33,009 nucleotides of DNA, taken from positions 1 through 33,009 of the forward strand of contig CAIVTJ010000209.1 of assembly GCA_903908825.1 (NCBI GenBank), written 5' to 3'. The notes below the pieces were generated by a model. It saw only the letters and a program-made list of their open reading frames with translations. It had not been told where the DNA came from and searched no databases. Origin of the DNA: an uncultured Pseudomonadota bacterium. GTDB taxonomy: Bacteria; Pseudomonadota; Gammaproteobacteria; Steroidobacterales; Steroidobacteraceae. The number at the start of each line of letters is the position of its first letter. Positions within the stretch are counted from its first letter, which is position 1. Made by a program: the position numbers and the translations under genes. Below, in pieces: positions 7,003-31,415 of the stretch.

Positions 7003-7612
7003 AAGCGCCGCCACCCAAAACCACTGCCAACACGCCGAAGCCCAGAGCCAGCATGAGACCTACGCCACCCATGAGCATCCGGCTCCACACCAACAAAAGC
7101 CAGGTGTCATGTGGCGCAAAGGCGTCGTGAAACAAGGCCCACAGTTCGGCGGGAAAGGTTGTGGCCGCGTTGACCACCAGCAACAGGCCCGAGAACACCA
7201 GAGCCCACGCCATGCGCCGCAGCAGCCACAGACCGGTTGACACGGGCCACGCCAACGCGACGATGAGCACCAGCAAGCTGTAAGAGAGAGTGCCGCCAGC
7301 AGTCAGGTCTACCTGCATGCCACTAACTTGCTGCGCGGCAAGCGGTGCGCCCAACCAAGCTTCCGGGTAGATCCATTGACCTTTGATCTGAATCGGCTGC
7401 GTCAGCACAGCAGTCAGTTGCAGCGTTTGATTGTGGCCTTTTGTGGCCGCGTCTAATGAGACCACACGGAACTCGCCCTGCACCGCCTCGACTACCGATT
7501 TGATCAACGGCGCCAAGCTCTGCAGCACGCTACCTTGTGCGAAATGTGCAATGCCCAATACCAGCACTGAGGCGATAACGAGACGCAAGGCCAATCTGAG
7601 CGGACTAAGCAT
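6977..7612 (-). CDS. Exosortase-associated membrane protein (XrtH partner type)
   Basis: 211 residues with one N-terminal TM helix (residues ~5-27), an extracytoplasmic domain of ~75 residues, then three TM helices (about 108-130, 135-152 and 180-205). Its start overlaps the end of the exosortase gene by 8 bp, so the two are almost certainly co-translated. Position, size and topology fit the membrane protein that accompanies exosortase H in other genomes, but there is no short motif I can point to as proof. It probably helps present or process sorted proteins at the inner membrane. Confidence 0.62.
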   Translation of the reverse strand: MLSPLRLALRLVIASVLVLGIAHFAQGSVLQSLAPLIKSVVEAVQGEFRVVSLDAATKGHNQTLQLTAVLTQPIQIKGQWIYPEAWLGAPLAAQQVSGMQVDLTAGGTLSYSLLVLIVALAWPVSTGLWLLRRMAWALVFSGLLLVVNAATTFPAELWALFHDAFAPHDTWLLLVWSRMLMGGVGLMLALGFGVLAVVLGGGAFRASHLPE

Positions 7613-8111
7613 TGTTTCTAACCAGAAACAGGCAGCCGTAAAAATACACGCAGACGAGCATGACGACTGCTACCGGCGTGACTATGGCGTGTAGCGGATC
7701 GAACCAGGCCGGATCGGCCCGGTACGCGTAAAAAAGCAACAGGATGCGTGCCTGGTTAATTGCGAAGACAAACATAAGGCCGCAGGCGATATCCAACAAC
7801 TTGAATCGCCAACGCAGCGGCGCAACAGCAAAGGCTGCAAGCAACAAGAAGAATGCCTCTATTCCCTCGCATCCATTGAGGATGTTCAAGCCACCGCCCG
7901 GTGCCTGAATGCTGAAACGCAGGGCTTGTGCATGAATTTCCGGTGACAGTGCGTTCACCAGAAACACTGCGGGCCGTACCGTTAAATGGTGCACCACCAA
8001 GTACTCAATAGGGCCCTCGCGACCCAACTGCCATAACCCTTGTAAGGCCACGAAAATCAACACGAAGGGCAGCAGTCTGCGCAGCAAAAAAGCATTCGAT
8101 TCAGATGTCAT
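7605..8111 (-). CDS. xrtH: Exosortase, compact XrtH-like
   Basis: 168 residues, membrane-embedded. The exosortase catalytic triad is visible: Cys81 in ILNGCEGIEA, Arg122 in INQARILLLF and His141 in FDPLHAIVTP, each at a membrane edge as the family requires. Exosortases cut proteins carrying a C-terminal PEP-CTERM-like tripartite signal and are thought to pass them on to the envelope or exterior. The short length, lack of N-terminal extra helices and the linked partner gene point to XrtH rather than the ~300-residue EpsH/XrtA or XrtD types. It is divergent from two genes encoding proteins with candidate sorting signals, its likely local substrates. Confidence 0.85.
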   Translation of the reverse strand: MTSESNAFLLRRLLPFVLIFVALQGLWQLGREGPIEYLVVHHLTVRPAVFLVNALSPEIHAQALRFSIQAPGGGLNILNGCEGIEAFFLLLAAFAVAPLRWRFKLLDIACGLMFVFAINQARILLLFYAYRADPAWFDPLHAIVTPVAVVMLVCVYFYGCLFLVRNNA

Positions 8112-8262
8112 AAGTCAGGTGCTTCCAGCAAGGGTTTCGAGACGCAACATGAAACAATCATTCACCCCAACTGCTGCGCCGATATTAAACAGAAAACAAA
8201 GCTTCACATTTCACAGTGACGATAGTGACACCAAACATAACCTGTTTCGCGGGAGACCCTTG
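8112..8262. promoter_or_regulatory. Divergent control region between exosortase and its putative substrate genes
   Basis: 151 bp. On the plus side a GGGAGA ribosome binding site (8250-8255) precedes ATG 8263. A tandem AGTGAC repeat (8215-8220 and 8224-8229) is joined by GAT, and the first copy also forms TCAC-A-GTGA (8211-8219). This could be an operator. A TTCACA to CATAAC pair lies nearby as a weak sigma-70-like promoter. No sigma-54 GG/GC promoter of the kind that drives some PEP-CTERM genes was found. Confidence 0.35.
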
Positions 8263-8946
8263 ATGTTTAGCTATCGCACCCTGTTCACAACTGTGCTGGC
8301 CTTGGCCAGCGCCACCTCGCAGGCCACCACGCTGGCAGGCTGGACCTTTGAATCCACCGCACCCGTCACGGCAGGCCCGGTCAGCGCTGAAATCGGCAGC
8401 GGGTCGGCATCGGGCCTGCATGCCAGTGCGTCGGCTGTGTATAGCAGCCCGACCGGCAACGGTTCGGCAAAGTCCTACAGCGCAAACTACTGGGCTATCG
8501 GTGATTACTACCAGTTCAGCACCAGCACCACCGGCTGGCTGAATGTCAGCCTGAGCTGGGATCAGACCAGCAGCGCAACCGGCCCGCGTGATTTCAAGCT
8601 GGCTTACAGCACCAACGGAAGTAGCTTCACTGACTTTGCCACGTACCAGGTGCCAGCGAACAGTGCGCCCAACGCGTGGTCGATCCTCAGCACAACGACC
8701 GCCGCGCACTTCGCTTACGACTTGTCGTCGATCACTGCACTGAATGATCAGGCGACCGTGTTCTTCCGCCTGATCGACACCAGCACCACGAGCGCAAATG
8801 GCACGGGCACTGTCGGTACTGCCGGCACTGATCGTGTCGACAATTTCAGCATCAATGCCGTGCCCTTGCCTGCCGGCGCCTGGCTGCTGGCCAGTGGCCT
8901 GTTAGGGATCGGCCGCTTGCAGCGCCGCAAGCTCTTCCTCCGCTGA
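8263..8946 (+). CDS. Exported protein with VPLPA-type C-terminal sorting signal
   Basis: 227 residues from ATG 8263, chosen over in-frame ATGs at 8119 and 8149 because it has a GGGAGA ribosome binding site and places a Sec signal peptide (RTLFTTVLALASATSQA) at the start. The mature part opens with TTLAGWTFES and is a beta-rich, Ser/Thr-rich domain of ~170 residues without Cys. The C terminus reads VPLPAGAWLLASGLLGI followed by a basic tail (QRRK), the classic VPLPA variant of PEP-CTERM. The protein is therefore expected to be cut by an exosortase, most simply the one encoded divergently. The function of the mature domain is unknown; a surface, biofilm or extracellular role is inference. Confidence 0.82.
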   Translation: MFSYRTLFTTVLALASATSQATTLAGWTFESTAPVTAGPVSAEIGSGSASGLHASASAVYSSPTGNGSAKSYSANYWAIGDYYQFSTSTTGWLNVSLSWDQTSSATGPRDFKLAYSTNGSSFTDFATYQVPANSAPNAWSILSTTTAAHFAYDLSSITALNDQATVFFRLIDTSTTSANGTGTVGTAGTDRVDNFSINAVPLPAGAWLLASGLLGIGRLQRRKLFLR

Positions 8947-9019: not shown

Positions 9020-12000
9020 ATGTCGAAACTAAACAACTGGTTGTCGCATTCCGCTGTCTCTGTTCTGCTTGCGGTGAGCCTGCTCACCGCACACAGCGCC
9101 ACCGCGGCGGTGTTAGCGGGATGGGATGTCCACAGTCTGGCAGGCGGATCAGCGAGCTTCGGCGCATCGCCTTTATCGGCTACCACAGCCGACGCCAATC
9201 TGACTGTCGTGGGGCTGACGCGGGGTAGCGGCATCTCAACCAGCGGCACCGCAGCAGCACGCGGTTGGGGTGGCACGGATTGGCAGACTGCCAATGCCGC
9301 AGCAGCCGTCACCGGGAACGATGTGGTGACCTTCTCGGTCACAGCCAACAGCGGCTACCAGGTCTCACTCAGCGCCATCAGTAAGCTCGATTATCGGCGC
9401 TCATCAACAGGCCCTTCCAGCGGCGTGTTGCAGTACAAGCTCGGCAATGGTGCCTACACCGACATCACTACACTGAGCTTTACCGCAACAGCATCCAGTG
9501 GCGGTTCGATCTCCTCCATCGATCTCAGCAGTATCCCGGCCCTGCAAAACGTAGCGGCTGGCACTACAGTCTCATTCCGCATTGCCAACTATGGTGGCAG
9601 CAGCAGCACAGGCACTTGGTATATCTATGACGTTGCCAATACCACCGCTGACGATCTGCAGATCAGCGGCACAGTCAGTGTGGGCAGCGGCGTTGTTAAC
9701 GGCAGTTGTGGCAGCTCTAATGGCCAGACCTTAGGCTCGATCCCCAGCAGCAATCTGTGCAGCTTGGGCAGCGCTTCTGCGGTAACTGGCACAGGCCCGT
9801 GGAACTGGAGTTGCAGCGGCACAGGAGGCGGCAGCACGGCCAGCTGCTCGGCAAACCTCTCGGCTGCCAGCCCGTTTACGATCTTCCACACCAATGACGT
9901 ACACGCACGCCTGACGCCTCACAAGTGGGTCATTCCCGCGCATGGCAGCGCGGCCGAAGTCTTTGAAGATGTCGGCGGCGCTGCGCATCTGGCCGGCAAG
10001 ATGCTGTCGCTGGTGGCCGGTAAGCCGACCGCATTAGTGTTGGACGGTGGCGATATCTCTGAAGGCAACCCGGTCGGTGATATGAACTGCACCACCCCAA
10101 CGGGTGGCGGAACACCGGTTTGCTCCAACAGCGGCTATGGCAACGGTGGCATGACCGCATTTTATACGCTGCTGCATCAGAAGCTTGCAGCCCTTGGCGG
10201 CTCGCGCGGCAGCCGAGGAATCGACGCACTGGTCGTCGGCAATCACGACGTACGTGACATCAGTTACATCACCAACATGGAGGCAATGCACACGGCGGGC
10301 GTGCCGATTATTTCGATAAACGTGCGTGACATTGCCACGCACGCACCGCACTTTGCACCCTGGACCACCGTGACGGTCAATGGCACCAAGGTCGGTATCA
10401 TCGGTTACACCACATCCACGGCAACTGTTGGCGCTTCATTAGCCAATACGCTTGAAGTTGTGGACTGCCAATGGAGTGGCTCGACGACCTGCAACATCTC
10501 GGACTATGTGACCGAGCTGCGCAACAACCAACATTGTGATGTGGTGATCCTGCTGACCCATGACGGCCACAGCGACTTGGTGGATCCGGCCGGACCCGTG
10601 CTGGCTGATACCGGATCGCCCAAGGTTCCGGAAATTGCGGTGACCGGTCACTGGCACACCTGGGCCGAAACCGCATGGCAGCCGCAGGCGCTTAACTACA
10701 AGTCAACCTTCGTTGAGTCCTCCAGCTACATGAAGTACATCGGCGAGCTCAACGTCGATGGCACGGGAAAGTACCTCAGTGCAACTCAACATGTTCTACG
10801 CAATTCCGATATTACCCCCGATGCCGATGTTGCAGCCTTCGTCAGCAATCTGATCGCGCAATACAACGCAGCTCACCCGGGTCATCCCGTGGATGAAGTG
10901 GTGGGTTACACCAGCGATGCGCTGTTGCTCGATAACGCTATGAAGTGGTGGTCACCGGATGAATATCCGTGGAACGGCAACAACACCGCCGGCCAATGGA
11001 TCACTGACGCGATGAAATGGAAGTGTGATCGCATCAGCTGGCCCAGCGCTGGCGGTTGCGACCTCGCGGTAGAGGCTGGCGGTGGCGTGCGGGCGGACAT
11101 TCCCGCCGGCCCCGTCACCTATCTGCAGGTCTACGAGACCTTCCCTTGGGCCGATGACACCTATGTCCGCATCAACATGACTGGACAGGACATCATCAAC
11201 TTCCTCAAGGCCACGAACCTCGGCGCGGGTTTCTCGCGCGAACTGACGGTAACGGCCACAGACGGCGTCCTTAATAGCGTGCTGATGAATGGTCAACCCA
11301 TAGGCCTGTCGACCACCTATAAGGTCGCCATCAACAACTACATGCTGGCTCATCCGCCGTCGGGCTATGTCTGGCCGACCAATGTCTCAGCGGAGTCAGA
11401 TCCGGCCAATGAACTGGTCCGCGACAGTCTGTCCGAGTTCATGCGCGTTGCGCACAATTCGCCGGCCACGGCCTACACCATCGGTGGTTCGCGTTACACG
11501 TTCAACGGCGAATACTCGGGTGGCTACCGCGCCGTCGTCACGATGATGAACGATGCCGAAAGTAAGCCCACCTTTGAAGATGCCTTTGTCCGTCTGTTGG
11601 GCGCGACCACCGAAACGCTGGCGCGGCGCGGCTCGCATCAGGTACCCGCAGACTTGGTCAACGCCGACGGCTCCGTCAATGGTGCTCATCGCTTGGCCGA
11701 GCAAGAGCTCTATCGCAGCTTCTTGGGCTTTAAAACCGGCTTGGTAGTGCCCGGCGACATCCTAGAAGTCTGGGGTAAGGCCAGCTTCTATGGCGGCAAC
11801 CCGGAGTTTGTCGATCAGGAAGGCATCTACGGTGACGGACTGGAGTTCAAGATCATCGGGCACGATGCATCACTGGCTAAGCCGACCTACGTGGCTTCGC
11901 TAGATGCACTGCTGACCAATGCATACAAGAACCATTATGTGCGCTTCCTGGCCCGCAAAACTGCGGCTGACACGGTTGTCGACCAGAACGGCAAGTCCTT

Positions 12001-13870
12001 AAAGATATGGGATCAGACGGGTTATACCGCTGCCACCTTGCCAGGCGCTGTGGGTGACACCTTGGACATCAGCGGCGTGCTGACCATGGAGAGCTTCGGC
12101 TATCGCTTGCGTCGCGGTAGCGCAGCCGTTACTTCCGCCAGCCTGCCGGCGGCCTTGGGCGTCAGCTCACATGTGTTGGCGCAAGCAGCCACAGCCAGTG
12201 CGCCCATCACAGTGACTGCAACCGCATCCATCAGCGGTGGCGGCTATGCCCTGGTACCTGTTGCCGATGCTCAGGTTGCCAGTGGTGCAAGCAGCACCAA
12301 CTATGGCAGCGGTAGCAACTTGTATCTGCAAGGCAGTACAGCCAGCGGTACTTTCGGCATTGAACGTGCCTGGTTGAAGTTTGATCTGTCGTCTATCCCG
12401 GCTGGTTCAACCATCACCGGCGCAAGCTTGCAATTGTTCAACTGGAAGGCGACGGGCCCTTCCATATCCGCTGAAGCGCGCGGTATCAGTACCGACACGT
12501 GGACGGAGACAGGCCTCAACTGGAGCAACCAGCCGGCCACCGGTACGGTATTGGATACGCAGACACTGGCATCCGGCACGACCAGCGTCTGGTACAACTG
12601 GAATGTCACCTCGTTTGTGCAAAGCGAATTCGCGGGGGATAAGACCGTGTCGCTGCTGGTCAAAGCCTCGGACGAAGCACTGGCCGGCGGCCCGACTTAT
12701 GGCTTCGATGCCAAGGAGTACGGCAGCAACGTGCCTGTGCTGCAAGTCACGACGCAAGCCACAGCCAGCTCGGTGGCTAACGTCAAGCTCTACTATCGCT
12801 ACTCGGCCAATAACACCACCTGGGGCAGTTGGACGCAGATCGGCAGTGACCTGAGCGCTGCGCCTTACAGCGCCGGCTTCAGTTTCCCCAACGGACTGGG
12901 CTATTACGAGTTCTATAGTGTCGCTACCGATAATTTAGGCAACATCGAATCGACACCGCTGGCTGCACAATCCGCCGTGGTTTACCAGTCGGCTTCGGGT
13001 AGCGCACAGACCATCAGCTTTGCCGCGCTATCAGACGCACCGGCCGGATCCAGTGCATCGCTGATTGCCACGGCAAGCTCAAGTTTGCCGGTGAGTTTCA
13101 GCAGCCAGACGCCTGGCATTTGCAGCGTCAGCGGCGCGCAAGTTACCAGTCTGACCATCGGCACCTGCGTCCTTGCGGCCAATCAGAGCGGCAACGTCAG
13201 CTACTGGTTGCCGGCTGCCGCAGTAACCCGCAGCTTCAGTGTGACCGGTGTACCGCAGAGCATCAGCTTCACGGCCTTGATCGATGCCTCGACGGGTGGG
13301 ACGCAAAGCCTGATCGCCTCGGCGACCTCAGGACTGACTGTCAGCTTCAGCAGTCAAACGCCCTCGATCTGCAGTGTCAGTGGCACTTCAGTCAGTGCAC
13401 AGGCGGGTGGCACCTGCACGGTCGCAGCCAATCAAGCCGGTGATGGCGGCTATTGGCTGGCGGCCGCGACAGTCACGCGCAGTTTTACCGTCGCTGGTCA
13501 GGCTCAGACCATCACCTTTGCTGCGCTGACAGATAAAACATTGGGCGTAGCACCCTTTGGCATCAACGCCGCCGCCTCCTCGGGGCTGACGGTCACCTTT
13601 GCGTCCTTAACGAGCAGTGTCTGCACCAGCAGTGGTGGCACAGTCACGCTACTCAAGGCAGGCACCTGCACCATCCAAGCAAGTCAAGCGGGTAACGCCA
13701 ACTATAATGCCGCGCCCAGCGTGTCACGCAGTTTCGCCGTGTTTGATAGCGGCGCAGCGCAAGGCGATTCATCCGGCAACGGTGATGCTCCCCTGCCCTT
13801 GTGGGCTCTGGTCCTGATGGCAGCAGGCTTGATGGGAATGCTGCAAATTAAGCAGCGCAGTTGGGTCTAA
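9020..13870 (+). CDS. Giant exported 5'-nucleotidase/metallophosphoesterase with repeats and C-terminal anchor
   Basis: 1616 residues. A Sec signal covers residues 1-30 and the mature start is VLAGWDVHS, similar to its neighbour's LAGWTFES. A beta-rich domain runs to ~220, then a short Cys-rich NGSCGSS...GPWNWSC module (~225-280). A calcineurin-like phosphoesterase follows with HTNDVHAR (~290), LDGGDISEGN, VVGNHDVRD (~406), LTHDGHSD and VTGHWHTWAE (~540). A 5'-nucleotidase C-terminal domain carries NNTAGQWITDAM and GGGVRADIPAGP (~687). A possible OB-fold segment lies at ~910-1035 and a DNRLRE/CBM-like domain at ~1077-1247. Three 83-residue Ig-like repeats span 1330-1578, and the end is DAPLPLWALVLMAAGL plus a basic tail. 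UshA/YhcR-type enzymes release phosphate or nucleosides from nucleotides or nucleic acid outside the cell. Substrate range and the sorting route are inference. Confidence 0.88.
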   Translation: MSKLNNWLSHSAVSVLLAVSLLTAHSATAAVLAGWDVHSLAGGSASFGASPLSATTADANLTVVGLTRGSGISTSGTAAARGWGGTDWQTANAAAAVTGNDVVTFSVTANSGYQVSLSAISKLDYRRSSTGPSSGVLQYKLGNGAYTDITTLSFTATASSGGSISSIDLSSIPALQNVAAGTTVSFRIANYGGSSSTGTWYIYDVANTTADDLQISGTVSVGSGVVNGSCGSSNGQTLGSIPSSNLCSLGSASAVTGTGPWNWSCSGTGGGSTASCSANLSAASPFTIFHTNDVHARLTPHKWVIPAHGSAAEVFEDVGGAAHLAGKMLSLVAGKPTALVLDGGDISEGNPVGDMNCTTPTGGGTPVCSNSGYGNGGMTAFYTLLHQKLAALGGSRGSRGIDALVVGNHDVRDISYITNMEAMHTAGVPIISINVRDIATHAPHFAPWTTVTVNGTKVGIIGYTTSTATVGASLANTLEVVDCQWSGSTTCNISDYVTELRNNQHCDVVILLTHDGHSDLVDPAGPVLADTGSPKVPEIAVTGHWHTWAETAWQPQALNYKSTFVESSSYMKYIGELNVDGTGKYLSATQHVLRNSDITPDADVAAFVSNLIAQYNAAHPGHPVDEVVGYTSDALLLDNAMKWWSPDEYPWNGNNTAGQWITDAMKWKCDRISWPSAGGCDLAVEAGGGVRADIPAGPVTYLQVYETFPWADDTYVRINMTGQDIINFLKATNLGAGFSRELTVTATDGVLNSVLMNGQPIGLSTTYKVAINNYMLAHPPSGYVWPTNVSAESDPANELVRDSLSEFMRVAHNSPATAYTIGGSRYTFNGEYSGGYRAVVTMMNDAESKPTFEDAFVRLLGATTETLARRGSHQVPADLVNADGSVNGAHRLAEQELYRSFLGFKTGLVVPGDILEVWGKASFYGGNPEFVDQEGIYGDGLEFKIIGHDASLAKPTYVASLDALLTNAYKNHYVRFLARKTAADTVVDQNGKSLKIWDQTGYTAATLPGAVGDTLDISGVLTMESFGYRLRRGSAAVTSASLPAALGVSSHVLAQAATASAPITVTATASISGGGYALVPVADAQVASGASSTNYGSGSNLYLQGSTASGTFGIERAWLKFDLSSIPAGSTITGASLQLFNWKATGPSISAEARGISTDTWTETGLNWSNQPATGTVLDTQTLASGTTSVWYNWNVTSFVQSEFAGDKTVSLLVKASDEALAGGPTYGFDAKEYGSNVPVLQVTTQATASSVANVKLYYRYSANNTTWGSWTQIGSDLSAAPYSAGFSFPNGLGYYEFYSVATDNLGNIESTPLAAQSAVVYQSASGSAQTISFAALSDAPAGSSASLIATASSSLPVSFSSQTPGICSVSGAQVTSLTIGTCVLAANQSGNVSYWLPAAAVTRSFSVTGVPQSISFTALIDASTGGTQSLIASATSGLTVSFSSQTPSICSVSGTSVSAQAGGTCTVAANQAGDGGYWLAAATVTRSFTVAGQAQTITFAALTDKTLGVAPFGINAAASSGLTVTFASLTSSVCTSSGGTVTLLKAGTCTIQASQAGNANYNAAPSVSRSFAVFDSGAAQGDSSGNGDAPLPLWALVLMAAGLMGMLQIKQRSWV
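13007..13753 (+). repeat. Three tandem 83-residue Ig-like repeats in the giant protein
   Basis: Repeat units begin at 13007, 13256 and 13505, exactly 249 bp apart, each with Q(T/S)I(S/T)F(A/T)AL, a central V(S/T)F(S/A)S stretch with two Cys in TP.ICSVSG and GTC, and an end like TRSF(S/T)V. The first two units are closest to each other. Such repeats usually act as stalks or spacers that hold the enzymatic head away from the surface. Confidence 0.88.
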
Positions 13871-14475: not shown

Positions 14476-15363
14476 TCAGCTGCCCAAGGCCGCCTGTAGG
14501 CTGGCAACTTCTTCGGCTGACTCTTCCAGGATCGCCGCCACATCCTCGTGATCCAGCTGCATGCGATCAAAGGCCGTGATGCCCTGCATGTTCAACTCAA
14601 TCGACTCCGGATAGGCATGGAACGACACGAACAAGGTAGCCACCGTGAGCACGTCTGTGAGATCCGGCTCGTCATCATGATCGCGCGTCAGATCTTCATG
14701 CTCGGCAACAGCCTCAACGATCTCGTCGCTCATTTCCCAATTTTCCAGAATGCTCTTGGCAATACCGGCATGCCAATCCCGAACAATTTCGTTGTAGCCG
14801 GCACGATCGGCAAACAGCGCCGGGTGATCAGCGGAGCGGGCAAGGATGTAGAGGCGACCTACGCCGTGCATGAGTCCAGCCAGCAGTGCTGTGTCGGCAT
14901 TGACCTGTGAGCAGCCTCGTGCCACCACGTAAGACATGGCGGCGACAAACACGCAGCGTTCCCACAACTCACCCAAAGGCTGACGCAGGCGCGCCAGGTC
15001 GGGCGAAGCCCGCATCTGCTCAACCGCAAAGGTCAAGGCGGCACTGCGCACCAGGTTCAAGCCAATGCGCGAGATTGCAGACTTCAGATCGGTAACGCGC
15101 GGACCGCCAGGATTCAGGGCTGCCGAGTTAGACAACTGCAGCAACTTGGCCGCCAGCCCGGGCTCGGCGCTGACTACGCGCACAATCTGCTTGGAACTCA
15201 CAAACTCGTCTGCCAGCACCTGACGCACGCGTGCCGCGATATCCGGAAAAGCAGGCAGCTCAACTTTGCCCGTAGACAGCTCTGCCGCCAGCGATTCAAT
15301 AAATGCGAAAGCCACCGGGCTGGATGAACCCGCCTCTGCAACCGAGCTGTTTGACATATTCAT
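14476..15363 (-). CDS. HDOD-domain protein (distal copy)
   Basis: 295 residues. I chose ATG 15363 because GAGAGGA lies five bases upstream; an in-frame TTG at 15375 is less likely. The HDOD domain covers residues ~25-240: KVELPAFPDIAARVRQ, SAEPGLAAKLLQLSNSA, and LAGLMHGVGRLY, where the HD dyad reads His166-Gly167, so no metal-dependent phosphodiesterase activity is expected. HDOD proteins act as signalling scaffolds in motility, biofilm and cyclic-di-GMP circuits, mostly by protein-protein contacts. This gene is last in the flagellar strand and is a paralogue of the HDOD gene at 15915-16808, with the same length and the same HG substitution. Confidence 0.85.
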   Translation of the reverse strand: MNMSNSSVAEAGSSSPVAFAFIESLAAELSTGKVELPAFPDIAARVRQVLADEFVSSKQIVRVVSAEPGLAAKLLQLSNSAALNPGGPRVTDLKSAISRIGLNLVRSAALTFAVEQMRASPDLARLRQPLGELWERCVFVAAMSYVVARGCSQVNADTALLAGLMHGVGRLYILARSADHPALFADRAGYNEIVRDWHAGIAKSILENWEMSDEIVEAVAEHEDLTRDHDDEPDLTDVLTVATLFVSFHAYPESIELNMQGITAFDRMQLDHEDVAAILEESAEEVASLQAALGS

Positions 15364-15384
15364 GAGTCCTCTCAAAAAAACTGA

Positions 15385-15786
15385 TCAGGCTGAGCGCCGC
15401 GGTCCGTGCAGTCTGGCAAGAAGTTCCGCCTCGCGACGTGTCACACCACTAGTTTCTAATATCTCGTCGACACTCGACCCGTTGCGGGCTAGACGCAGCG
15501 CTAATTCGTAGCCTCTAGGGGCTGGTGCCTGAGTTGCAACTTGGGCGCGTGCTTCGAGCTTTGTCTCTAAGCCACCGATACGAAACAACAAGGCTTCGGT
15601 CGCTGCGGCCAAGGTGCGCGTTTCGCCGCGCGAATGTTCGAGCTCATCGAGAACTCGACGGATATCCCGCTCGCCGGCGCTGCGCCAACGCGCAAACACC
15701 ACGGCAAAGGCCAGCAAGGCAGCAACCAGAATGACAGCCCGACCAGCGAAAAAAACCATCTGACTGGGTTCAAGAAAAAAATCCAT
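15385..15786 (-). CDS. DUF2802 protein with N-terminal membrane helix
   Basis: 133 residues. Residues ~12-32 form one TM helix (VFFAGRAVILVAALLAFAVV), followed by a coiled-coil-like region rich in Arg, Glu and Ala, and a C-terminal segment with YELALRLARNGSSVDEI...SGVTRREAELLARLHG, the short helix-turn-helix-like signature of DUF2802. The family is found at the end of flagellar/chemotaxis clusters in Pseudomonas and relatives, where its role is not established. GGAG lies about eight bases before ATG 15786. It sits between the two HDOD genes. Confidence 0.78.
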   Translation of the reverse strand: MDFFLEPSQMVFFAGRAVILVAALLAFAVVFARWRSAGERDIRRVLDELEHSRGETRTLAAATEALLFRIGGLETKLEARAQVATQAPAPRGYELALRLARNGSSVDEILETSGVTRREAELLARLHGPRRSA

Positions 15787-15914: not shown

Positions 15915-16808
15915 TCAGCCGCCGAGCACCGCATTGAGTTCGTCTATGGCCTCTTCAGCCTCAGCCAACAGCAACAACACGCCCGCAGCATCGATATCGA
16001 TACGCTGCCAGAAGCGCGCATCAGCCTCTATCAGGGGCAGAGCCGTTTCGACAGACGGGACGGCATCGGCCAACTGTTCGCGCAATGTACCCAGCTGCGC
16101 CGCTGCAGCCAGAACGTCAGTTAGATCTACGCCTGCAGCGGGTATGCGCTGGGCATCAGCATAAAAACGCACAGCATCAACCAAATCTTCAGACATGCCC
16201 CAATCGGTTAGCAATGCTGCGGCAATATCGGTATGCCATTCCTCAAGTATGCGTGTGCACACATCGGGCTGGGCCTGCAAAGCAGGGTGTGCAGCCATAC
16301 GAACGTAAATGCAAAGCCTGCCGATACCATGTAACAGGCCGGCTAGCAGCGCCACGTCTGCATTCAAACGGGAGCGCCTGCGCGCCACGACGCGGCACAG
16401 GGCAGCCAAGGCAATGCTGCGCTGCCACAAAGCCGCCAGTTGCGACTTAAGCGGCCCAAAGTCAGTTTTATTCAGTAGCTGCTGAACGATAAAGGCCATG
16501 GCTGCGGTGCGCACCACGTTGTAGCCCAGGCGCATGACCGCGGTACGCAAGTCAGAGACCTGACGTCCCATAGAATTGAACAACGCAGAGTTGGCCATCT
16601 GCATGACACGCACGGCCAGTAGCGGCTCTGCGCTAATGGCCCTGATGACCAGATCTAGATCAACTTCCTCTGCTGACAGCGCGCGTTGAACACGCATGGC
16701 CGCCTCGGGATAGCTGGGCAGTTCAACCTTGCCTTCAGCCAACTCGCTTGCCAGCGCCTGCATGAAAAACAGGGCTTCTTGATCCAGGTTTGAATGAACT
16801 TCAGGCAT
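15915..16808 (-). CDS. HDOD-domain protein (motB-proximal copy)
   Basis: 297 residues from ATG 16808, with GGAAG about nine bases upstream. It has the same layout as its paralogue: KVELPSYPEAAMRVQR, AISAEPLLAVRVMQMANSA, and LAGLLHGIGRL with His160-Gly161 in place of HD, then a helical tail. It begins 18 bp after motB, so it is part of the flagellar operon. The likely role is a non-enzymatic scaffold in motility or surface signalling, inferred from the family and the context. No response-regulator or EAL domain is attached. Confidence 0.87.
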   Translation of the reverse strand: MPEVHSNLDQEALFFMQALASELAEGKVELPSYPEAAMRVQRALSAEEVDLDLVIRAISAEPLLAVRVMQMANSALFNSMGRQVSDLRTAVMRLGYNVVRTAAMAFIVQQLLNKTDFGPLKSQLAALWQRSIALAALCRVVARRRSRLNADVALLAGLLHGIGRLCIYVRMAAHPALQAQPDVCTRILEEWHTDIAAALLTDWGMSEDLVDAVRFYADAQRIPAAGVDLTDVLAAAAQLGTLREQLADAVPSVETALPLIEADARFWQRIDIDAAGVLLLLAEAEEAIDELNAVLGG

Positions 16809-16826: not shown

Positions 16827-17660
16827 CTAGGGCGCCAGCCCCAATGTCGATAATTTTTCTAATCCGTTCGTATCTGATTCCGGATTGGAGATTATTAACA
16901 CAACGCGGCGATTGGCACTGCGACCTGCGTCACTCCCGTTATCACTCACGGGCTGTTGTTCTGCATGCGCTACCACAGACAAACGCGAGGAATCGACGCC
17001 ACCTGAGCCCAGCAAGTGCACAACACTGGCGGCACGCGCTGCGGAGAGCTCCCAGTTGGAGCGATAAACAGCTGAATGGATAGGCCGGTCATCGGTGTGG
17101 CCTTCAACCCGGATGGCATTAGGCACTGCACGCAGCACCTTGGACAATTCGGCTATCACAGGTTCGGCTGCTTGCGAAACATCACCGACACCGCTTGAAA
17201 AAAGGATATCGGACTTTAGCTCGACTTCAATGTAGTCGTCGTGCACCCGTACATCGACCAGTCCTTTGTCGATCAGTCCGCCCATCGCCAACGTCAATTG
17301 TTCAGCCATAGCGTGCAAACGACGCGGTCCGAGTGGAACCTCAGCGATAAGCGGTATGGGGTTGACGAGCACGTCATGATCACGGTCCAGGATTGGATTA
17401 GGCAGGCGCAGCACGCCAATATTCAGGTTCTCACCGAATCCAGCACCCTCTATGGTTTGGGTTGTTTCGACTGAGCCTTGCATGGCCTCTATGAGCGAGG
17501 ACGACAGCTGGCGATACTTGCCGGTGTTGACCGACGAGATGGAATACATCACGACAAAAAACGCCAGCAGCAGAGTTACCAGATCACCATAAGGGATGGC
17601 CCACGCCTCGTGGTTGGCGTGGTCTTCGTGACGGCGACGGCGGGCATGTCGACGTGACAT
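16827..17660 (-). CDS. motB: Flagellar stator protein MotB (MotD-type)
   Basis: 277 residues. A basic N terminus is followed by one TM helix starting AIPYGDLVTLLLAFFVVMYS, with Asp26 as the proton-carrying residue and the usual Tyr/Ser context. The C-terminal OmpA-like peptidoglycan-binding domain includes VEGHTDDRP (185-193) and SNWELSAARAASVV. MotB pairs with MotA to form the torque-generating proton channel anchored to the wall. It starts nine bases after motA. Position right after fliA and motA matches the motCD pair of Pseudomonas-type clusters. Confidence 0.94.
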   Translation of the reverse strand: MSRRHARRRRHEDHANHEAWAIPYGDLVTLLLAFFVVMYSISSVNTGKYRQLSSSLIEAMQGSVETTQTIEGAGFGENLNIGVLRLPNPILDRDHDVLVNPIPLIAEVPLGPRRLHAMAEQLTLAMGGLIDKGLVDVRVHDDYIEVELKSDILFSSGVGDVSQAAEPVIAELSKVLRAVPNAIRVEGHTDDRPIHSAVYRSNWELSAARAASVVHLLGSGGVDSSRLSVVAHAEQQPVSDNGSDAGRSANRRVVLIISNPESDTNGLEKLSTLGLAP

Positions 17661-17669
17661 GGCGGCGCG

Positions 17670-18410
17670 TCAGTGCCCGTAACTCTGCAGCCGCGCCTCG
17701 ATACGCCGCGGGTTCTCGCCCTGGGCAACCGCCAGTAGGCCCTCGACGATCATCTCGCGTAGGTGGCTGTTGAGCTGCACCACTGTCTTGAGCTTATTGG
17801 CGACGGGCAAAAACAGCAGATTAGCCAGACCAATACCGTAAATTGTCGCGGTAAATGCAGCCGCAATACCATGGCCGAGTTTGCTGGGGTCGGCGAGGTT
17901 CTGCATGACGGCCATCAGACCAAGCACTGCACCGATGATGCCCAGAGTCGGCGCATAGACGCCCATGCCCTCAAATACTTTGGCAGCCCGTCCATCGACG
18001 GACTCCCGAGCGCCGATATCGATCTCTAAGCTGTGGCGGATGGCATCGGGCTCTGTGCCATCAATGACCATCATCAAACCTTTGCGCAGGAAGTCGTCTT
18101 CAATACCTTCAACTTCAGACTCCAGACCCAGTAACCCGGTTCGCCGCGCCGTATTGCCCCATTCCACAAATGTGGCGATCAACTCATCGGCTTTCATCCG
18201 TGGCGGGCTGAAGATCCAAGGCAATATGGCAAAGGCCCGCCGCATGGTCGCCATGGGCGTTTGGATCATGACGGAAGCCATGGTCCCTATGACCACGATC
18301 GTGAAAGCCGCGCTGGAGACCAGAGCATGTAAGCCTGCGCCTTTGAGCACAGCACCCACCAACACCGCAACGAAAGCCAGGACGATGCCGAACAGGCTAA
18401 GAATATCCAT
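17670..18410 (-). CDS. motA: Flagellar stator protein MotA (MotC-type)
   Basis: 246 residues with four TM helices: two near the N terminus (~1-23, ~32-52) and two in the second half (~150-170, ~182-205). The conserved cytoplasmic loop has TARRTGLLGLESE, with the Arg and Glu residues that contact FliG in the family, and the third helix region has APTLGIIGAVLGLMAVM. It begins 19 bp after fliA. In Pseudomonas and Xanthomonas the chemotaxis genes cheY, cheZ, cheA and cheB separate fliA from this pair; here nothing does. Confidence 0.94.
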   Translation of the reverse strand: MDILSLFGIVLAFVAVLVGAVLKGAGLHALVSSAAFTIVVIGTMASVMIQTPMATMRRAFAILPWIFSPPRMKADELIATFVEWGNTARRTGLLGLESEVEGIEDDFLRKGLMMVIDGTEPDAIRHSLEIDIGARESVDGRAAKVFEGMGVYAPTLGIIGAVLGLMAVMQNLADPSKLGHGIAAAFTATIYGIGLANLLFLPVANKLKTVVQLNSHLREMIVEGLLAVAQGENPRRIEARLQSYGH

Positions 18411-18429
18411 GACTTAAAGGCCTGCGCGG

Positions 18430-19173
18430 CTAGCGCAAGTCCGCCAGATCGTCATGAGCTTTTTCGACCCATGAGGCTAGCCGTGCCTTCAGACGCGTCA
18501 GCGCTTGACCATGCATCTGGCAAACCCGGGATTCAGACACCTTGAGCACCAGACCAATTTCCTTGAGGTTGAGTTCATCGTCGTAATAGAGCGACATTAA
18601 TAACCGCTCCCGTTCCGGCAACTCATTAATAGCCTCTCCAAGCCCCTCACGAAAGCCTGCCATCAACGTTTGGCGCAATGGATCAGATTCACGGTCCGCA
18701 ATGTCAAATGACAGCGGTAAATCTTCGATGCTGCCAATGTGCGAAGTGGCGGCGTCCTGCATGAGGCGGTGAAAGTCAGTCAGCGTGACGCCCATACGCG
18801 CAGCAATCTCGACATCACGCGCCTCGCGGCCAGTCTCAGCCTCAATAGCCCGGATCGCAGCGGCCGCCTCGCGCGACTGCCGATGCACGGAACGCGGCGT
18901 CCAATCCAACTGCCGCAAGGTGTCGATCATGGCGCCACGTATGCGGATGCCGGCAAAGGTCTCGAAGGTTGCGCCGCGATCAGCGGAATAACCGGCCGCC
19001 GCCTCCAACAGCCCGATCATGCCGGCCTGAATCAGGTCTTCGACGTCCACAGAGGCCGGCAGACGTGCGGCCAAATGAAAGGCAATGCGCTTGACCAGAC
19101 CGGCATGGCGCACAACGAGGTCATCACCCTCGCGATGAGCCTGTGTCGAGCTGTAAGCGCTGACCGCTCTCAC
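18430..19173 (-). CDS. fliA: RNA polymerase sigma factor for flagellar operons (sigma-28)
   Basis: 247 residues, the standard FliA length. Region 2 carries PASVDVEDLIQAGMIGLLEA and FETFAGIRIRGAMIDTLR, then DWTPRSVHR, region 3, and region 4 with LPERERLLMSLYYDDELNLKEIG...VSESRVCQMHGQAL. FliA drives the late flagellar genes and is held by FlgM until the hook is complete. It starts with GTG at 19173, sharing GTGA with the flhG stop, so the two are translationally coupled. Confidence 0.95.
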   Translation of the reverse strand: MRAVSAYSSTQAHREGDDLVVRHAGLVKRIAFHLAARLPASVDVEDLIQAGMIGLLEAAAGYSADRGATFETFAGIRIRGAMIDTLRQLDWTPRSVHRQSREAAAAIRAIEAETGREARDVEIAARMGVTLTDFHRLMQDAATSHIGSIEDLPLSFDIADRESDPLRQTLMAGFREGLGEAINELPERERLLMSLYYDDELNLKEIGLVLKVSESRVCQMHGQALTRLKARLASWVEKAHDDLADLR

Positions 19174-20057
19174 CTGACTGGTTCCAATTTTGGCTCTGCA
19201 TGCGCCACAAGTCGCTCGACAAAAAACTCGAGGTTACCGCGCGGACCATTGGCAGACGGCCAATTCGCCACCCCACGCGCCAGCCTGCGAAACGACAACG
19301 ATGCCGGCGCGGTGGGGAACGCCTCAATCACCGTACGTTGCTCACGGATCGCACTTCTGACCAATGGATCGTCGGGAATTTCACCCGCATATTCGACCAC
19401 GACATCCAGAAAGCGAGTGGTAACCCGCTCAAGTTTCCGGAATATGTTTTCGCCTTCGCCAAGGTTCTGCGTCATGTTGGCCAGGATGCGGAATCGCGTC
19501 ACATTGTGATCGCGACGCAGTACCTTGATTAGCGCATAGGCATCAGTTAGCGCAGCAGGCTCATCACGTAGCACGATCAGCACGTTCTGAGCTGCCTGGC
19601 AGAACTGCCGGACGCCGTCGGCAATGCCGGCTGCGGTATCTACGATCAACACATCAAGACCCAGCGTCAGATTGCTGAACGCCTGTACCAGTCCCAGATG
19701 TTCGTTGCTGGACAGCTCGGAAAGCTTGGCGACCCCTGAGGCTGCGGGGATGATCTTGAAGCCCTGCCGGGTATCGAGGATGGCCTCTTCCAGCGTGCAA
19801 CGACCCTCCAGCACATGCTCTAAGGTGTAGCGCGGCGTGACACCCAGCAGCACGTCAACGTTGGCCAGACCCAGATCACCGTCCAGCACCAACACCCGCT
19901 TACCCGTGTTGGCCAGCGCAGTCGCGAGGTTAACCGTAACGAAGGTCTTACCTATGCCACCTTTACCACCGGTGACGGCGATGACCTGGACCGGTCCCGG
20001 TCGGGTTGCGGCACGCAAGCCGGCAGTCTGCGCGGCATCAAACCTAGGCAATGACAT
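19170..20057 (-). CDS. flhG: Flagellar number regulator FlhG/FleN (MinD-like ATPase)
   Basis: 295 residues from ATG 20057, chosen because GGAGGTG lies eight bases upstream; the open frame extends to 20117 but that part has no start signal. The deviant Walker A is KGGIGKT at residues 32-38, with DGDLGLANVDVLLG and VLIVDTAAGIADG following. The N-terminal DAAQTAGLR resembles the FlhF-activating DQAxxLR motif. FlhG limits flagellar number and stimulates FlhF GTPase, and in Pseudomonas its homologue restrains FleQ. It overlaps flhF by 14 bp. Confidence 0.93.
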   Translation of the reverse strand: MSLPRFDAAQTAGLRAATRPGPVQVIAVTGGKGGIGKTFVTVNLATALANTGKRVLVLDGDLGLANVDVLLGVTPRYTLEHVLEGRCTLEEAILDTRQGFKIIPAASGVAKLSELSSNEHLGLVQAFSNLTLGLDVLIVDTAAGIADGVRQFCQAAQNVLIVLRDEPAALTDAYALIKVLRRDHNVTRFRILANMTQNLGEGENIFRKLERVTTRFLDVVVEYAGEIPDDPLVRSAIREQRTVIEAFPTAPASLSFRRLARGVANWPSANGPRGNLEFFVERLVAHAEPKLEPVR

Positions 20058-21183
20058 GAGCGACACCTCCAAAACGACGGACCAGCATTTCTTCGCCAGA
20101 CGTAGCGCCCGACTCACGGGTCAACAAGACAGAGCGGGCCACCAACTGATGTGCACGCGCCGGCGCGAGATCTTCAGGTATGCGCTGACCTTCGCTGACA
20201 TAGCTGACCGGCAGTTGGGTACTAGCCAACAGCGAAAGCGTGCCGCCCAGACTCATGGCTTCATCGATCTTGGTGATCAGTGCAAAGGAAGGTGCAAAGG
20301 CTTGGAATCGCTCTACGGCATCGACCAGCACACCGGCCTGAGCAGCGGCCGATAAGGTCAGACAAATCTGTAAGCCACTGTCTTCGGCAATCCGGGTGAA
20401 CTGCTGTGCGCGCAGCGGCAGATCAGCATCACGCGGGCTCATGCCAGCGGTGTCTATCAGCACCAGTCGCCGTTCGGCGTGGCGCATCAGCAGCGCCGGC
20501 AAATCCTGCAAGTCTTCGATGGTGAAGGTCTGCACACCCAGCAGGCGACCCAGAACCTCGATTTGTTCCTGAGCACCAAAGCGTTGCGCATCGACCGAGA
20601 TGAGCACGATATCGCGGGCGCTGTGACGCATGACCCAGCGGGCTGCCAACTTAGCTATCGCCGTGGTCTTGCCTACGCCGGTCGGACCGACAAAGGCGAC
20701 TCGACCGCCCCGCTCTAACAGGGCGTCACCGGTGACCCGTATACGCCGGGCGACACCGGCCAATGCGCGGCGATGCGCATCGGCGAAGCTCAGGCCACCG
20801 GGAATGCCGGCAACCAACTCACCGGACAAGGACTGCGACAAACCAAGGTCACTGAGCTCTTTGAGCAATTCCGCTTGGGCCGGTGAACGTCGGCCCAGGT
20901 CATTCCAAGCCAACTGCGACATCTGGCTCTCGAGCATATGGCGGATGCTGCGCAGTTCCGCGCCCACTTCGGCAGCTGGCGGAACCGAATAATTGGGCTC
21001 ATCTGGCAGCGAAGACATCGACATCGGTGCGTGAGTGGCCTGTTCAAAGTCAGTGGCCGCCGATACCTCAACGCCCTCCGCTACCGAGCGCGAGGACAAG
21101 ATGACTGCATCGGGACCTTGCTGCTCCCTGACCTGCCGCAGCGCTTCACGCATATCTTTGGCGACGAATGTCCTGATCTTCAT
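20044..21183 (-). CDS. flhF: Flagellar biosynthesis GTPase FlhF (polar placement)
   Basis: 379 residues. The N-terminal B domain (MKIRTFVAKDMREALRQVRE) is followed by a variable linker, an N domain, and an SRP-type G domain with GPTGVGKTT (166-174), LISVDAQRFGAQEQ, VLIDTAGMSPRD and ITKIDEAMSLG. FlhF marks the pole where the flagellum is built, so a polar flagellum is expected. It follows flhA after 26 bp and is overlapped by flhG. Confidence 0.95.
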   Translation of the reverse strand: MKIRTFVAKDMREALRQVREQQGPDAVILSSRSVAEGVEVSAATDFEQATHAPMSMSSLPDEPNYSVPPAAEVGAELRSIRHMLESQMSQLAWNDLGRRSPAQAELLKELSDLGLSQSLSGELVAGIPGGLSFADAHRRALAGVARRIRVTGDALLERGGRVAFVGPTGVGKTTAIAKLAARWVMRHSARDIVLISVDAQRFGAQEQIEVLGRLLGVQTFTIEDLQDLPALLMRHAERRLVLIDTAGMSPRDADLPLRAQQFTRIAEDSGLQICLTLSAAAQAGVLVDAVERFQAFAPSFALITKIDEAMSLGGTLSLLASTQLPVSYVSEGQRIPEDLAPARAHQLVARSVLLTRESGATSGEEMLVRRFGGVAHVIA

Positions 21184-26713: not shown

Positions 26714-27079
26714 TTAGCGCAGCGTCTGGATACGTTCCGCAGGACTGACCACATCGACCAGACGGATGCCGAACTTCTCGTTGATCAACACCACCTCGCC
26801 ACGGGCGACCAGCGTGCCATTCACATGCACATCCAGTGGCTCTCCGGCAGCACGCTCGAGCTCCACAACAGAACCCTGGTTAAGCTGCAGCAAACTGCGG
26901 ATAGGCAATCGTGTGCGCCCGACTTCCAAAGTCAACGTCACCGGGACATCGAGGATGATGTCCAGATTGACGTCGCTGGGGTTTTGCGACACCGCGTTCT
27001 GAGCCTGCATTGCGATGTGCGCAGCAAGCTCCTGCTCCATCGCTGCGGCCATCTCTTCTTCGTTCGTAGCTTCGCTCAT
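26714..27079 (-). CDS. fliN: Flagellar C-ring protein FliN
   Basis: 121 residues, a full-length FliN with an acidic/helical N terminus and the SpoA domain: LDIILDVPVTLTLEVGRT, IRSLLQLNQGSVVELE, GEPLDVHVNGTLVARGEVV and FGIRLVDV. FliN normally sits under FliM in the rotor C ring and docks FliH-FliI. It follows fliL after only 22 bp, where fliM would normally lie. It is too short and lacks the CheC-like middle domain and the LSQxEIDALL start of FliM, so it is not a FliM or a FliM-FliN fusion. Confidence 0.95.
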   Translation of the reverse strand: MSEATNEEEMAAAMEQELAAHIAMQAQNAVSQNPSDVNLDIILDVPVTLTLEVGRTRLPIRSLLQLNQGSVVELERAAGEPLDVHVNGTLVARGEVVLINEKFGIRLVDVVSPAERIQTLR

Positions 27080-27101
27080 GGTGTCCGATCCTGTTGCAGG
27101 G

Positions 27102-27647
27102 TTACTGCATCACGAGGGTTGTAAAATACAAACCCTCAATCTTTTCGGGGTGTCCGCCCTCAGCCGAAACAATGTTGCGTACGGCTTCCAGAGAAGCGGC
27201 ACGTAGCTTTTCTTTGCCTTCGACGTTTGACAGTCCCGCTGATGTCTGTTGACCGAACAGCAACAACAAGTCGTTTCTGATAGCGGGAATATTGGCTTTG
27301 ACGAACTCGACCATCTCGGGATCGCGGGTCATCAACTGCACAGCAATCTGTAAGAAGCGTGCATTGCTGACCGACTCAAAGTTGACCGTGAACGGAGGAT
27401 CCAGTGGTATGTAGACCGCTGCCGCCTTAGGTACCGCCTTTTCAGGTTCGGCATGTTCCGCGGCTTTATCCTTGCCACCCTTAAGGAAGAAGAAGGCCGC
27501 ACCACCACCACCGAGCAGTACCACCACCGCAATGATGATGATGATCAGCATCTTCTTGCTTTTGGGCTTTGCGGCCTCCTCAGCCTTGCCGTCTTCAGCT
27601 CCCGGCTTAGCCTTGGTCTTTGCTTTTGCATCTGGCGGTTTTGACAT
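27102..27647 (-). CDS. fliL: Flagellar basal body protein FliL
   Basis: 181 residues. The Lys/Ala/Glu-rich cytoplasmic tail is followed by one TM helix (MLIIIIIAVVVLLGGGGAAF, ~33-52) and a periplasmic domain with YIPLDPPFTVNFE, LQIAVQLMTRDPEM, and IRNDLLLLFGQQT. FliL surrounds and supports the stator. It is the first gene after the 186-bp regulatory gap and so heads the downstream transcript. Confidence 0.95.
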   Translation of the reverse strand: MSKPPDAKAKTKAKPGAEDGKAEEAAKPKSKKMLIIIIIAVVVLLGGGGAAFFFLKGGKDKAAEHAEPEKAVPKAAAVYIPLDPPFTVNFESVSNARFLQIAVQLMTRDPEMVEFVKANIPAIRNDLLLLFGQQTSAGLSNVEGKEKLRAASLEAVRNIVSAEGGHPEKIEGLYFTTLVMQ

Positions 27648-29389: not shown

Positions 29390-30741
29390 GTGTTATCTCC
29401 AAACAAGGCAGTCAATTCAGCAACGCTGGCAGGTAGGCTGACGCTCTCGTGCATGCCCTGCTGCAAAAACTGTTGCAGTTGTGGCCACAGAGCCATCGCA
29501 CCATCGATGCGTGGATCCGTGCCGCGCTGATAAGCGCCAATGGCAACCAGATCGCGGTTCTGCTCATAGGTCGAAAGGGTCTGCTTTAACCGACGTGCAC
29601 TGGCCGTTTGGGAGGCGGGCACGATGTCATGCATGACGCGGCTGATAGAGGCTTCCACGTCTATAGCCGGATAGTGGCCGCTCTCGGCAATGCGCCTGGA
29701 GAGGACCACATGACCATCCAAAATGGCCCGCGCGCTGTCAGCAATCGGGTCGTTCTGATCGTCGCCCTCTGCCAGTACTGTGTAAAAGGCAGTAATCGAG
29801 CCGGCGCCCTCTGCACCATTACCGGCGCGCTCGACCAACTGCGGCAGCTTGGCGAATACCGAAGGCGGATAGCCCTTGGTGGCCGGTGCTTCACCGATCG
29901 CCAAGCCGATCTCACGTTGGGCCTGCGCAAAACGCGTCAGCGAATCCATGATTAACAGGACATTTAGCCCTTGGTCACGGAAATACTCGGCGATCGCGGT
30001 TGACAGCCACGCACCATGCAGACGCATCAAAGGGGTGTTGTCCGCAGGTGAAGCGACCACCACAGAGCGCTTGAGTCCCGCCTCGCCTAAAATCTTTTCT
30101 ATGAACTCTTTGACCTCACGGCCGCGCTCACCGATCAGGCCCACCACAATGACATCGGCTTCGGTATAGCGGGCCATCATGCCCAGCAGGACGCTCTTGC
30201 CGACACCGGAACCTGCAAACAAGCCTATGCGTTGCCCGCGACCCACGGTCAACAAGGCATTGATGGCTCGCACGCCGACATCCAAAGTACGGGTCACAGG
30301 TGCCCGGCGCAACGGATTGATAGCTGTGCCGGCCAACTTAGTACGGCCTTCACACACCAGCGGACCTTTACCGTCAAGCGGTGCGCCAGAGCCATCTATC
30401 ACACGCCCTAACATTTCCATACCGACCCGCACATCACCTGCACCCGGTCGCGGCACCACACGGGCGCCAGGACGTAATCCATGAATATCACCCGTCGGCA
30501 TCAGGTATAGCCTGTCGGCAGCAAAGCCGACGACCTCAGCCTCAACAAAACTGCCGTCACCGCTCATGACATCGCAGCGATCACCGATCGCCGCCTGACA
30601 ACCGGTAGCCTCTAGCGTTAAGCCGACCATACGGGTCAGATGACCCTCGACCGGAGGCTGCGGGAGTGACTGCACGACCCGCAAGGTACGAGCAAGACTG
30701 TCGCTCCAGCCGCGGCCCAGTTGCGCTGCACCCTGATTCAT
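29386..30741 (-). CDS. fliI: Flagellum-specific ATPase FliI
   Basis: 451 residues. Walker A AGSGVGKS lies at 176-183, followed by [18 protein letters not shown], the Walker B region [23 protein letters not shown] split across that strand and helix, and [18 protein letters not shown]. It powers loading of export substrates at the base of the flagellum. The ATG overlaps the fliH stop by ATGA. Confidence 0.97.
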
Positions 30742-31415
30742 GTTGCGCCGGCCTCTTCAGACAAGCGTTCGCGCGCTCTGTCTTCACCCAACATGGCAGT
30801 AATCACTTCCGCGAAACGGGTTTCAACACGCGCATCAATTTGCGACAGCCCGGCTGTCACCCGACAGCCGCCTCGGGATAGCGTGGGGTCTTCAATAATC
30901 GTCCATGCTCCCAGACCAACCGGTTGCGCCAGACGCATCCTGACCAACAAGGCATCTTCGGGATGCAGGAGCACCCGAATCTCGGGTGTCGTCGCCGGCA
31001 GCAATGCCAATGTCTCGCGAACGATAGCAATAACCTGCTCAGGATCCTGACGTAGCTCACGCCGCAGCAAGTGCTTGGCAATTGCAATGGCCAACTCCGC
31101 GATCTGCTGCTGCACTTGTTCATCGACCAGTGCAATGGGTTGAGCAAGGCTGTTCAAGGCTGAGGACAGCGCCTGGGCTTCGCTAGCCAAAGCCCGCTTT
31201 GATCGCTCCAGCTCAATCTTCGCGGAGGCCATTCCTAATTCGTAGGCTTCGGAACGCAGGCGCTCAAAAGCGGCATCAGCCTGCTCGGGTGTATCGCCAA
31301 AGATGTCGCGTCGATGGCGACTGCCAAAGGCAGTGCCTTCGATATCCGGCGCGCGCCACGCCTGCGCCGAAGAGGCAAATTCAGCACTGGTAACGCGAGG
31401 TGCAGGTCCACTCAC
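30738..31415 (-). CDS. fliH: Flagellar assembly protein FliH
   Basis: 225 residues. The N terminus is variable and contains W and aromatic residues ([11 protein letters not shown]), used by the family to dock on FliN/FlhA. A long helical middle and a C-terminal domain follow, with [32 protein letters not shown] and [22 protein letters not shown], all typical. FliH regulates FliI. It starts with GTG immediately after the fliF TAA, with no fliG in between. Confidence 0.94.

Follow-up and report, generated by a model that had tools for sequence, protein, structure and literature searches.

The stretch of DNA analysed here (the window) is contig CAIVTJ010000209.1, positions 1–33009, from an assembly (G000) of 2.95 Mb in 381 contigs with a stated completeness of 98.8 %. 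Its open reading frames give the minus-strand order fliF-fliH-fliI-fliJ-fliK-fliL-fliN-fliO-fliP-fliQ-fliR-flhB-flhA-flhF-flhG-fliA-motA-motB-HDOD-DUF2802-HDOD. Pfam/NCBIfam matches cover fliL, fliN, flhF, flhG, fliA, motA, motB, the DUF2802 gene and both HDOD genes (flhF and flhG being named from SRP54 and ParA-type domains together with position), and the remaining fli and flh names, read from order and sequence, agree with the gene order in relatives. The features that matter here, all on the minus strand, are as follows.

31400–31430, minus: fliF–fliH junction without fliG, which lies at C302:14308–15315 (open reading frames)
27080–27101, minus: fliL–fliN gap of 22 bp without fliM, which lies at C302:13268–14269 (open reading frames, Pfam)
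26714–27079, minus: fliN, remaining at the ancestral site (Pfam, NCBIfam)
20044–21183, minus: flhF, upstream context conserved with relatives (Pfam; relatives)
19170–20117, minus: flhG (fleN), upstream context conserved with relatives (Pfam; relatives)
18430–19173, minus: fliA, sigma-28 (Pfam, NCBIfam)
18411–18429, minus: fliA–motA junction, 19 bp, where family relatives have cheY-cheZ (open reading frames; relatives' loci)
17670–18410, minus: motA (Pfam, NCBIfam)
16827–17660, minus: motB (Pfam)
15915–16808, minus: first HDOD protein, a marker of the old site, since in relatives the che block ends with cheB and then the HDOD genes (Pfam; relatives)
15385–15786, minus: DUF2802 gene, between motB and cheA in relatives (Pfam; relatives)
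14476–15375, minus: second HDOD protein, downstream of cheB in relatives (Pfam; relatives)

The 19 bp gap is too short to hold a gene, and the claim of a preliminary description of this DNA that no che genes stand between fliA and motA is therefore borne out, at exactly 18411–18429. Its claim that fliG and fliM have gone from the region also stands, as neither is among the named open reading frames of the window: fliH (30738–31415) directly abuts fliF (which starts at 31416), leaving fliG absent there, and fliL (27102–27647) is followed after 22 bp by fliN (26714–27079), with fliM absent. The broader statement that the whole path from CheY to the rotor is missing from the region holds for che, fliG and fliM, but not for FliN, a C-ring protein encoded in the window. 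The two genes are adjacent, with no che gene between them, in all six genus genomes that carry both on one contig (the window genome, G001, G002, G003, G004 and G007), and because all six are alike the che-less junction is not a matter of chance; in G005 just the last part of fliA is visible beside motA.

Beside the flagellar region, an exosortase-family gene adjoins that of a VPLPA-CTERM sorting-signal protein (window 7605–8111 and 8119–8946), forming a small protein-sorting pair; the exosortase-family gene is XrtM/XrtH-like and scores below the curated cut-offs of those models. Further, a 1616-aa open frame (9020–13870) carries a 5'-nucleotidase C-terminal domain and a CBM96/DNRLRE domain, and its product is probably a large exported enzyme.

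A family search of the same genome returned one FliG gene and one FliM gene, both on contig C302, which also holds a CheA; loss of the switch proteins is thus rejected. The genes on C302 are the following.

C302:14308–15315, minus: fliG (family search)
C302:13268–14269, minus: fliM (family search)
C302:12942–13268, minus: fliN2 (Pfam/NCBIfam annotation)
C302:12516–12917, minus: cheY (Pfam/NCBIfam annotation)
C302:11842–12519, minus: cheZ (Pfam/NCBIfam annotation)
C302:11398–11739, minus: STAS gene (family search)
C302:9464–11401, minus: cheA (Pfam/NCBIfam annotation)
C302:8794–9450, minus: cheR-like gene, truncated, 218 aa (Pfam/NCBIfam annotation)

One possibility raised in the preliminary description, that the cell swims without any switch for lack of the genes, draws on a window whose named open reading frames include no che gene, fliG or fliM; as worded it is contradicted by fliG, fliM, cheY, cheZ and cheA on C302, and we regard it as very improbable. 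The alternative offered beside it, a separate switch-plus-chemotaxis locus, is right: fliG, fliM, a second fliN, cheY, cheZ, cheA and a cheR remnant lie together on C302. In G000 this block lies between mnmG, accompanied by two small genes, and trkH-trkA-uvrD, and in G003 the same neighbours, on a 362-kb contig, enclose it (we take these to be mnmG, trkH, trkA and uvrD from their sequences). Since mnmG and trkH flank the block on one contig, its ends are not contig breaks in G000 or G003. In G000 trkH comes after the cheR-like gene, which directly succeeds cheA, and the block contains no receptors, no cheW and no cheB. Moreover, the cheR-like protein has neither the N-terminal CheR domain nor the conserved FFRE stretch nor the GEEPYS motif, and its SAM-site residues are changed.

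Two members of the block deserve separate mention. The STAS gene of G000 (C302:11398–11739) overlaps the start of cheA, and frames similar to STAS precede cheA in G001, G003, G005 and G024 (the family search covering those of G000, G003 and G024), making the STAS protein a candidate regulator of CheA. The two FliN paralogues (window 26714–27079 and C302:12942–13268) are 51 % identical over 104 aa; both copies are also found in G003, at 77 and 76 % identity to those of G000, and the motor possibly has a mixed C-ring.

Comparison with relatives indicates where the block came from. The order fliA-cheY-cheZ-motA-motB is present in six of eleven family-relative loci (L097, L098, L099, L102, L104 and L106), the other five either not spanning the junction or, in L105 and L107, being arranged differently; in most family relatives DUF2802 and cheA come next, followed with varying completeness by cheW, MCP, cheY2, cheR, cheB and the HDOD genes. 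The window keeps DUF2802 and the two HDOD genes in place, and the genes from cheY to cheB have gone. The same che-less order occurs in G002, G003, G004 (with one HDOD gene) and G007, and in G001 and G005 as far as they can be read. Similarly, of 24 loci outside the genus (L108–L131, the best-scoring non-genus FliM loci; 67 genomes have FliM), 21 have fliM at its ancestral position in the order fliL-fliM-fliN-fliO, with G024, G059 and G069 as the exceptions. The block adjoins mnmG in G000, G001, G002, G003 and G005, several genes intervene in G004, and in G007 the link is not visible. In trees, genus FliM, FliG and CheA each form one clade with 100 % ultrafast bootstrap, which is consistent with a single event in the genus ancestor. 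A block acquired from outside the family is not favoured, as genus FliM nests among family FliM, with modest support at the placing node (81/70); the placement is left unresolved by the FliG tree. That the family is Steroidobacteraceae is suggested by FliM of Steroidobacter agaridevorans, which groups among the family FliM rows, and by a Steroidobacteraceae FliM identical to that of G038.

On gene order, then, the bare fliA–motA junction is the scar of a relocation. The preliminary description had conceded that che-less relatives with a standard che operon elsewhere would make its observation a simple relocation, and genus relatives with the che-less junction do carry, in their moved block, a fuller operon with cheW, receptors and cheR or cheB: G001 has cheA-cheW-MCP-cheY2-X-MCP-cheR, over two contigs, and G007 has MCP-cheW-MCP-cheY2-cheR-cheB before fliG (its cheW being a 164-aa gene assigned from a CheW-domain match at that place). 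Relocation of chemotaxis genes is an already known kind of event, and the junction alone is an ordinary relocation. On its own, the fact that fliA and motA are neighbours is not very informative, as G022 and G041 appear to have arrived at this arrangement simply by losing genes. A simple move of the che operon would have left a complete operon at the new site, and in G000 that complete moved operon is not present.

The receptor complement of the genus is uneven. Genome-wide MCP matches number one each in G000, G002, G003, G004 and G008, and three to seven in G001, G005, G006 and G007; the sole MCP of G000, G002, G003 and G008 is PilJ-like, of the pilus system, and lies beside chpA. Among the genome-wide MCP matches of G000 there is no dedicated methyl-accepting receptor for a flagellar pathway, and no CheW was found in that genome, CheW domains occurring just in CheA, ChpA and a PilI-like protein; of the adaptation enzymes, CheR is truncated and altered and no cheB lies within the C302 block. 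Across 118 genomes, 33 (G000 included) have a CheA at E≤1e-90, a cut-off set after seeing the match table, with counts made by eye; 30 of the 33 have at least two MCPs, and the three with a single MCP are G000, G002 and G003. Just outside the cut-off lie G021 (4.5e-89, five MCPs) and G006 (4.2e-81, three MCPs). The genus members G004 and G008 have one MCP and no flagellar-type CheA match, and G006 and G008 have no FliM match. The gene content of the assemblies thus shows that receptor genes were lost in the lineage of G000, G002 and G003, all genomes being drafts (G003 a MAG) in which a receptor could sit in the missing 1–2 %.

CheA itself differs within this lineage. The G000 protein has P1, P3, P4 and P5 and no Pfam P2, and CheA of G005 likewise carries P5; those of G002 and G003 have Hpt and HATPase domains and no CheW-type P5 at the C-terminus, their dimerisation domain being unrecognised by Pfam in a stretch that aligns unbroken. 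No P5-like sequence was found downstream of cheA in G002 or G003, the G002 contig ending shortly after the gene. In G003 a 173-aa CheW gene stands between cheA (526 aa) and trkH; that this gene is a split-off P5 was considered and rejected, as it matches the CheW of G001 (40 % over 113 aa) and not P5. Between G000 and G003, CheA is 45 % identical, FliG 87 % and FliM 89 %; between the receptor-bearing G001 and G005 the corresponding values are 78, 85 and 83 %. In the CheA tree two branches measure 1.94 and 1.79 as against 0.17–0.19, that of G000 being the longest. Considering that CheA identity is low although that of FliG and FliM is high, and that the branches are long, the receptor-free lineages underwent a change in selection on CheA. 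In the CheA tree G000 groups with G002/G003 with weak support (79/91) and is flagged for long-branch attraction; that grouping was set aside, and their sister relation is taken from FliM and FliG.

These findings bear on the possibility that relocation alone took place, the pathway being otherwise ordinary and its receptors residing in an unassembled part of the genome. G000 is in 381 contigs, and G001, G005 and G007 do keep receptors (within the block in G001 and G007); however, in G000 and G003 mnmG and trkH enclose the block on a single contig, three assemblies of 98–100 % stated completeness agree on one MCP, the change in CheA sequence is concentrated in exactly G000, G002 and G003, and both G002 and G003 show a clean loss of P5. 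We consider this explanation distinctly unlikely.

Selection on CheA has not disappeared. Between G002 and G003 its dN/dS is 0.085 (bootstrap 0.056–0.123; Nei–Gojobori with a simple bootstrap), the values for cheZ and motA being 0.085 and 0.063, and CheA is under purifying selection in this pair; G000, the window's own species, has no close sister for dN/dS and lies outside the comparison. The CheA reading frames are open in all three genomes. An explanation in which CheA is degenerating into a pseudogene and the motor rotates in a single direction would account for the absence of receptors, cheW and cheB from the block, for a cheR without its N-terminal domain and with altered SAM-site residues, and for the very long CheA branches, and apparent complete loss is seen elsewhere in the family in G022 and G041; yet the open frames in three genomes, the retained ATP-site and phospho-His residues and the dN/dS of the G002–G003 pair all speak against it, and we think it unlikely. 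As a separate observation, fliG of G002 and G003 (L089, L088) has a synonymous divergence of 0.087, against 0.175–0.478 in the other 12 genes compared, perhaps through recent recombination.

The residues on which the remaining chain would depend are kept. Seven aligned CheAs show no variation in the phospho-His, N, G1 and G2 motifs, CheZ retains the QDL.GQ motif (relative to 1kmi), CheY aligns with solved CheYs over residues 3–124 of 133, and FliM retains EIDALL, the N-terminal CheY-binding peptide. Of the parts of a flagellar pathway, G000 therefore has CheA with phospho-His and ATP motifs, CheY, and FliM with the N-terminal peptide. Flagellin-family genes are present too, and, because it has a single FliM, G000 probably has one flagellar system. 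In G002 and G003 we observed a second, distant flagellar gene set (L096 on C46 of G002, L095 on C31 of G003; fliF-fliG...flhA seen in G003), whose FliM is ~35–37 % identical to that of the block.

We suggest, with a probability of about 0.72, that relocation was followed by loss of receptors and that a CheA-CheY-CheZ-FliM chain still switches the motor without a classical receptor array. In particular, comparison shows that in the genus ancestor cheY-cheZ, cheA, cheW, receptors, cheR and cheB moved out of the fliA-motA-motB-DUF2802-HDOD region, as did fliG and fliM from beside fliF and fliL; the moved genes joined with an extra fliN into one block, beside mnmG in most members. Later, as the gene content of the assemblies shows, the G000/G002/G003 lineage lost the receptors, cheB, and cheR or its key residues, together with cheW (in G000) or the P5 of CheA (in the sisters G002 and G003). 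CheA would still phosphorylate CheY, CheY~P would bind FliM and reverse the motor, and CheZ would reset the system; reversal would then depend on the activity of CheA itself or on some non-classical input, and not on a dedicated flagellar receptor array. We infer from the conserved residues that the remaining chain still sets motor reversals; its input may be PilJ or something other than a receptor array, or there may be none. In E. coli, CheA without receptors shows very low kinase activity, and for that reason the motor might rarely switch.

Two more specific forms of input can be weighed. CheA may have been re-coupled to the pilus receptor PilJ, with one receptor serving both twitching and swimming: in G000 no MCP besides PilJ was found, nor any free CheW-type protein besides the PilI-like one, and CheA there keeps P5. 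Against this, G002 and G003 CheA is without P5, the part that couples to CheW and receptors, and is nevertheless under purifying selection, so that re-coupling seems doubtful. Alternatively, CheA may no longer hear chemoreceptors, and CheA-CheY-CheZ, in one block with FliG-FliM-FliN, may be a self-contained reversal generator or take a new input (e.g. STAS or HDOD proteins); we offer this tentatively, as a possibility we would not yet favour. In this picture one sister lineage has gone on to discard the receptor-coupling P5, with the kinase preserved by selection.

CheA is generally regarded as inseparable from its receptor array, and the receptor-free remainder is therefore out of the ordinary. 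Returning to relocation with subsequent receptor loss, the genomes form a natural series running from a fuller block (G001, G007) through a receptor-free state with P5 (G000) and one without P5 (G002, G003) to apparent complete loss (G022, G041), which would allow a test of whether chemotaxis can be reduced to mere control of switching and of which parts go first. G002 and G003 provide a naturally selected P5-less CheA for biochemistry, and the question raised is what tells a flagellum when to reverse once its flagellar sensors appear to have gone.

Finally, among known systems the set resembles the gammaproteobacterial F-class pathway (CheA-CheW-MCP, CheY-CheZ, CheR-CheB), to whose components CheA, CheY, CheZ and FliM of G000 are homologous and of which family relatives hold a fuller set beside fliA-motAB; in G000 it differs in its location, in being joined to switch genes, in its degenerate cheR, and in having neither cheW nor a flagellar MCP, nor a cheB within the block. 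G024 and G059 have fliG-fliM-fliN-STAS-like-cheA with divergent cheY-cheZ, and thus unite switch and che genes in one locus as G000 does, but their FliM branches apart, the genes stand in another order, and they retain cheW and receptors; theirs probably arose as an independent assembly of a locus of this kind. G022 and G041 (L156, L157) share with G000 fliA beside motA, one MCP and flagellar genes, but have no flagellar-type CheA match, and their fliG and fliM are still in the ancestral positions; in them flagellar chemotaxis has apparently been lost completely, and G057, of the same genus as they are, keeps it. In the accessible portions of the open-access literature (PMC9321776 included), searched partly by exact phrase, no precedent was found for a receptor-less CheA, che-less flagellated genomes, fliG-fliM-che loci or Steroidobacter chemotaxis. 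A survey, in its accessible part, reports a CheW domain in 100 % of 13,673 CheA sequences and appears to define CheA by a domain criterion, by which P5-less forms could be excluded by definition (PMC10782961). G000 CheA (P1, P3, P4, P5, no Pfam P2) has the form given as common in that part of the survey, and G002/G003 CheA, without P5, departs from it; a flagellar CheA kept without receptors, and one kept without P5, is a departure from the survey.
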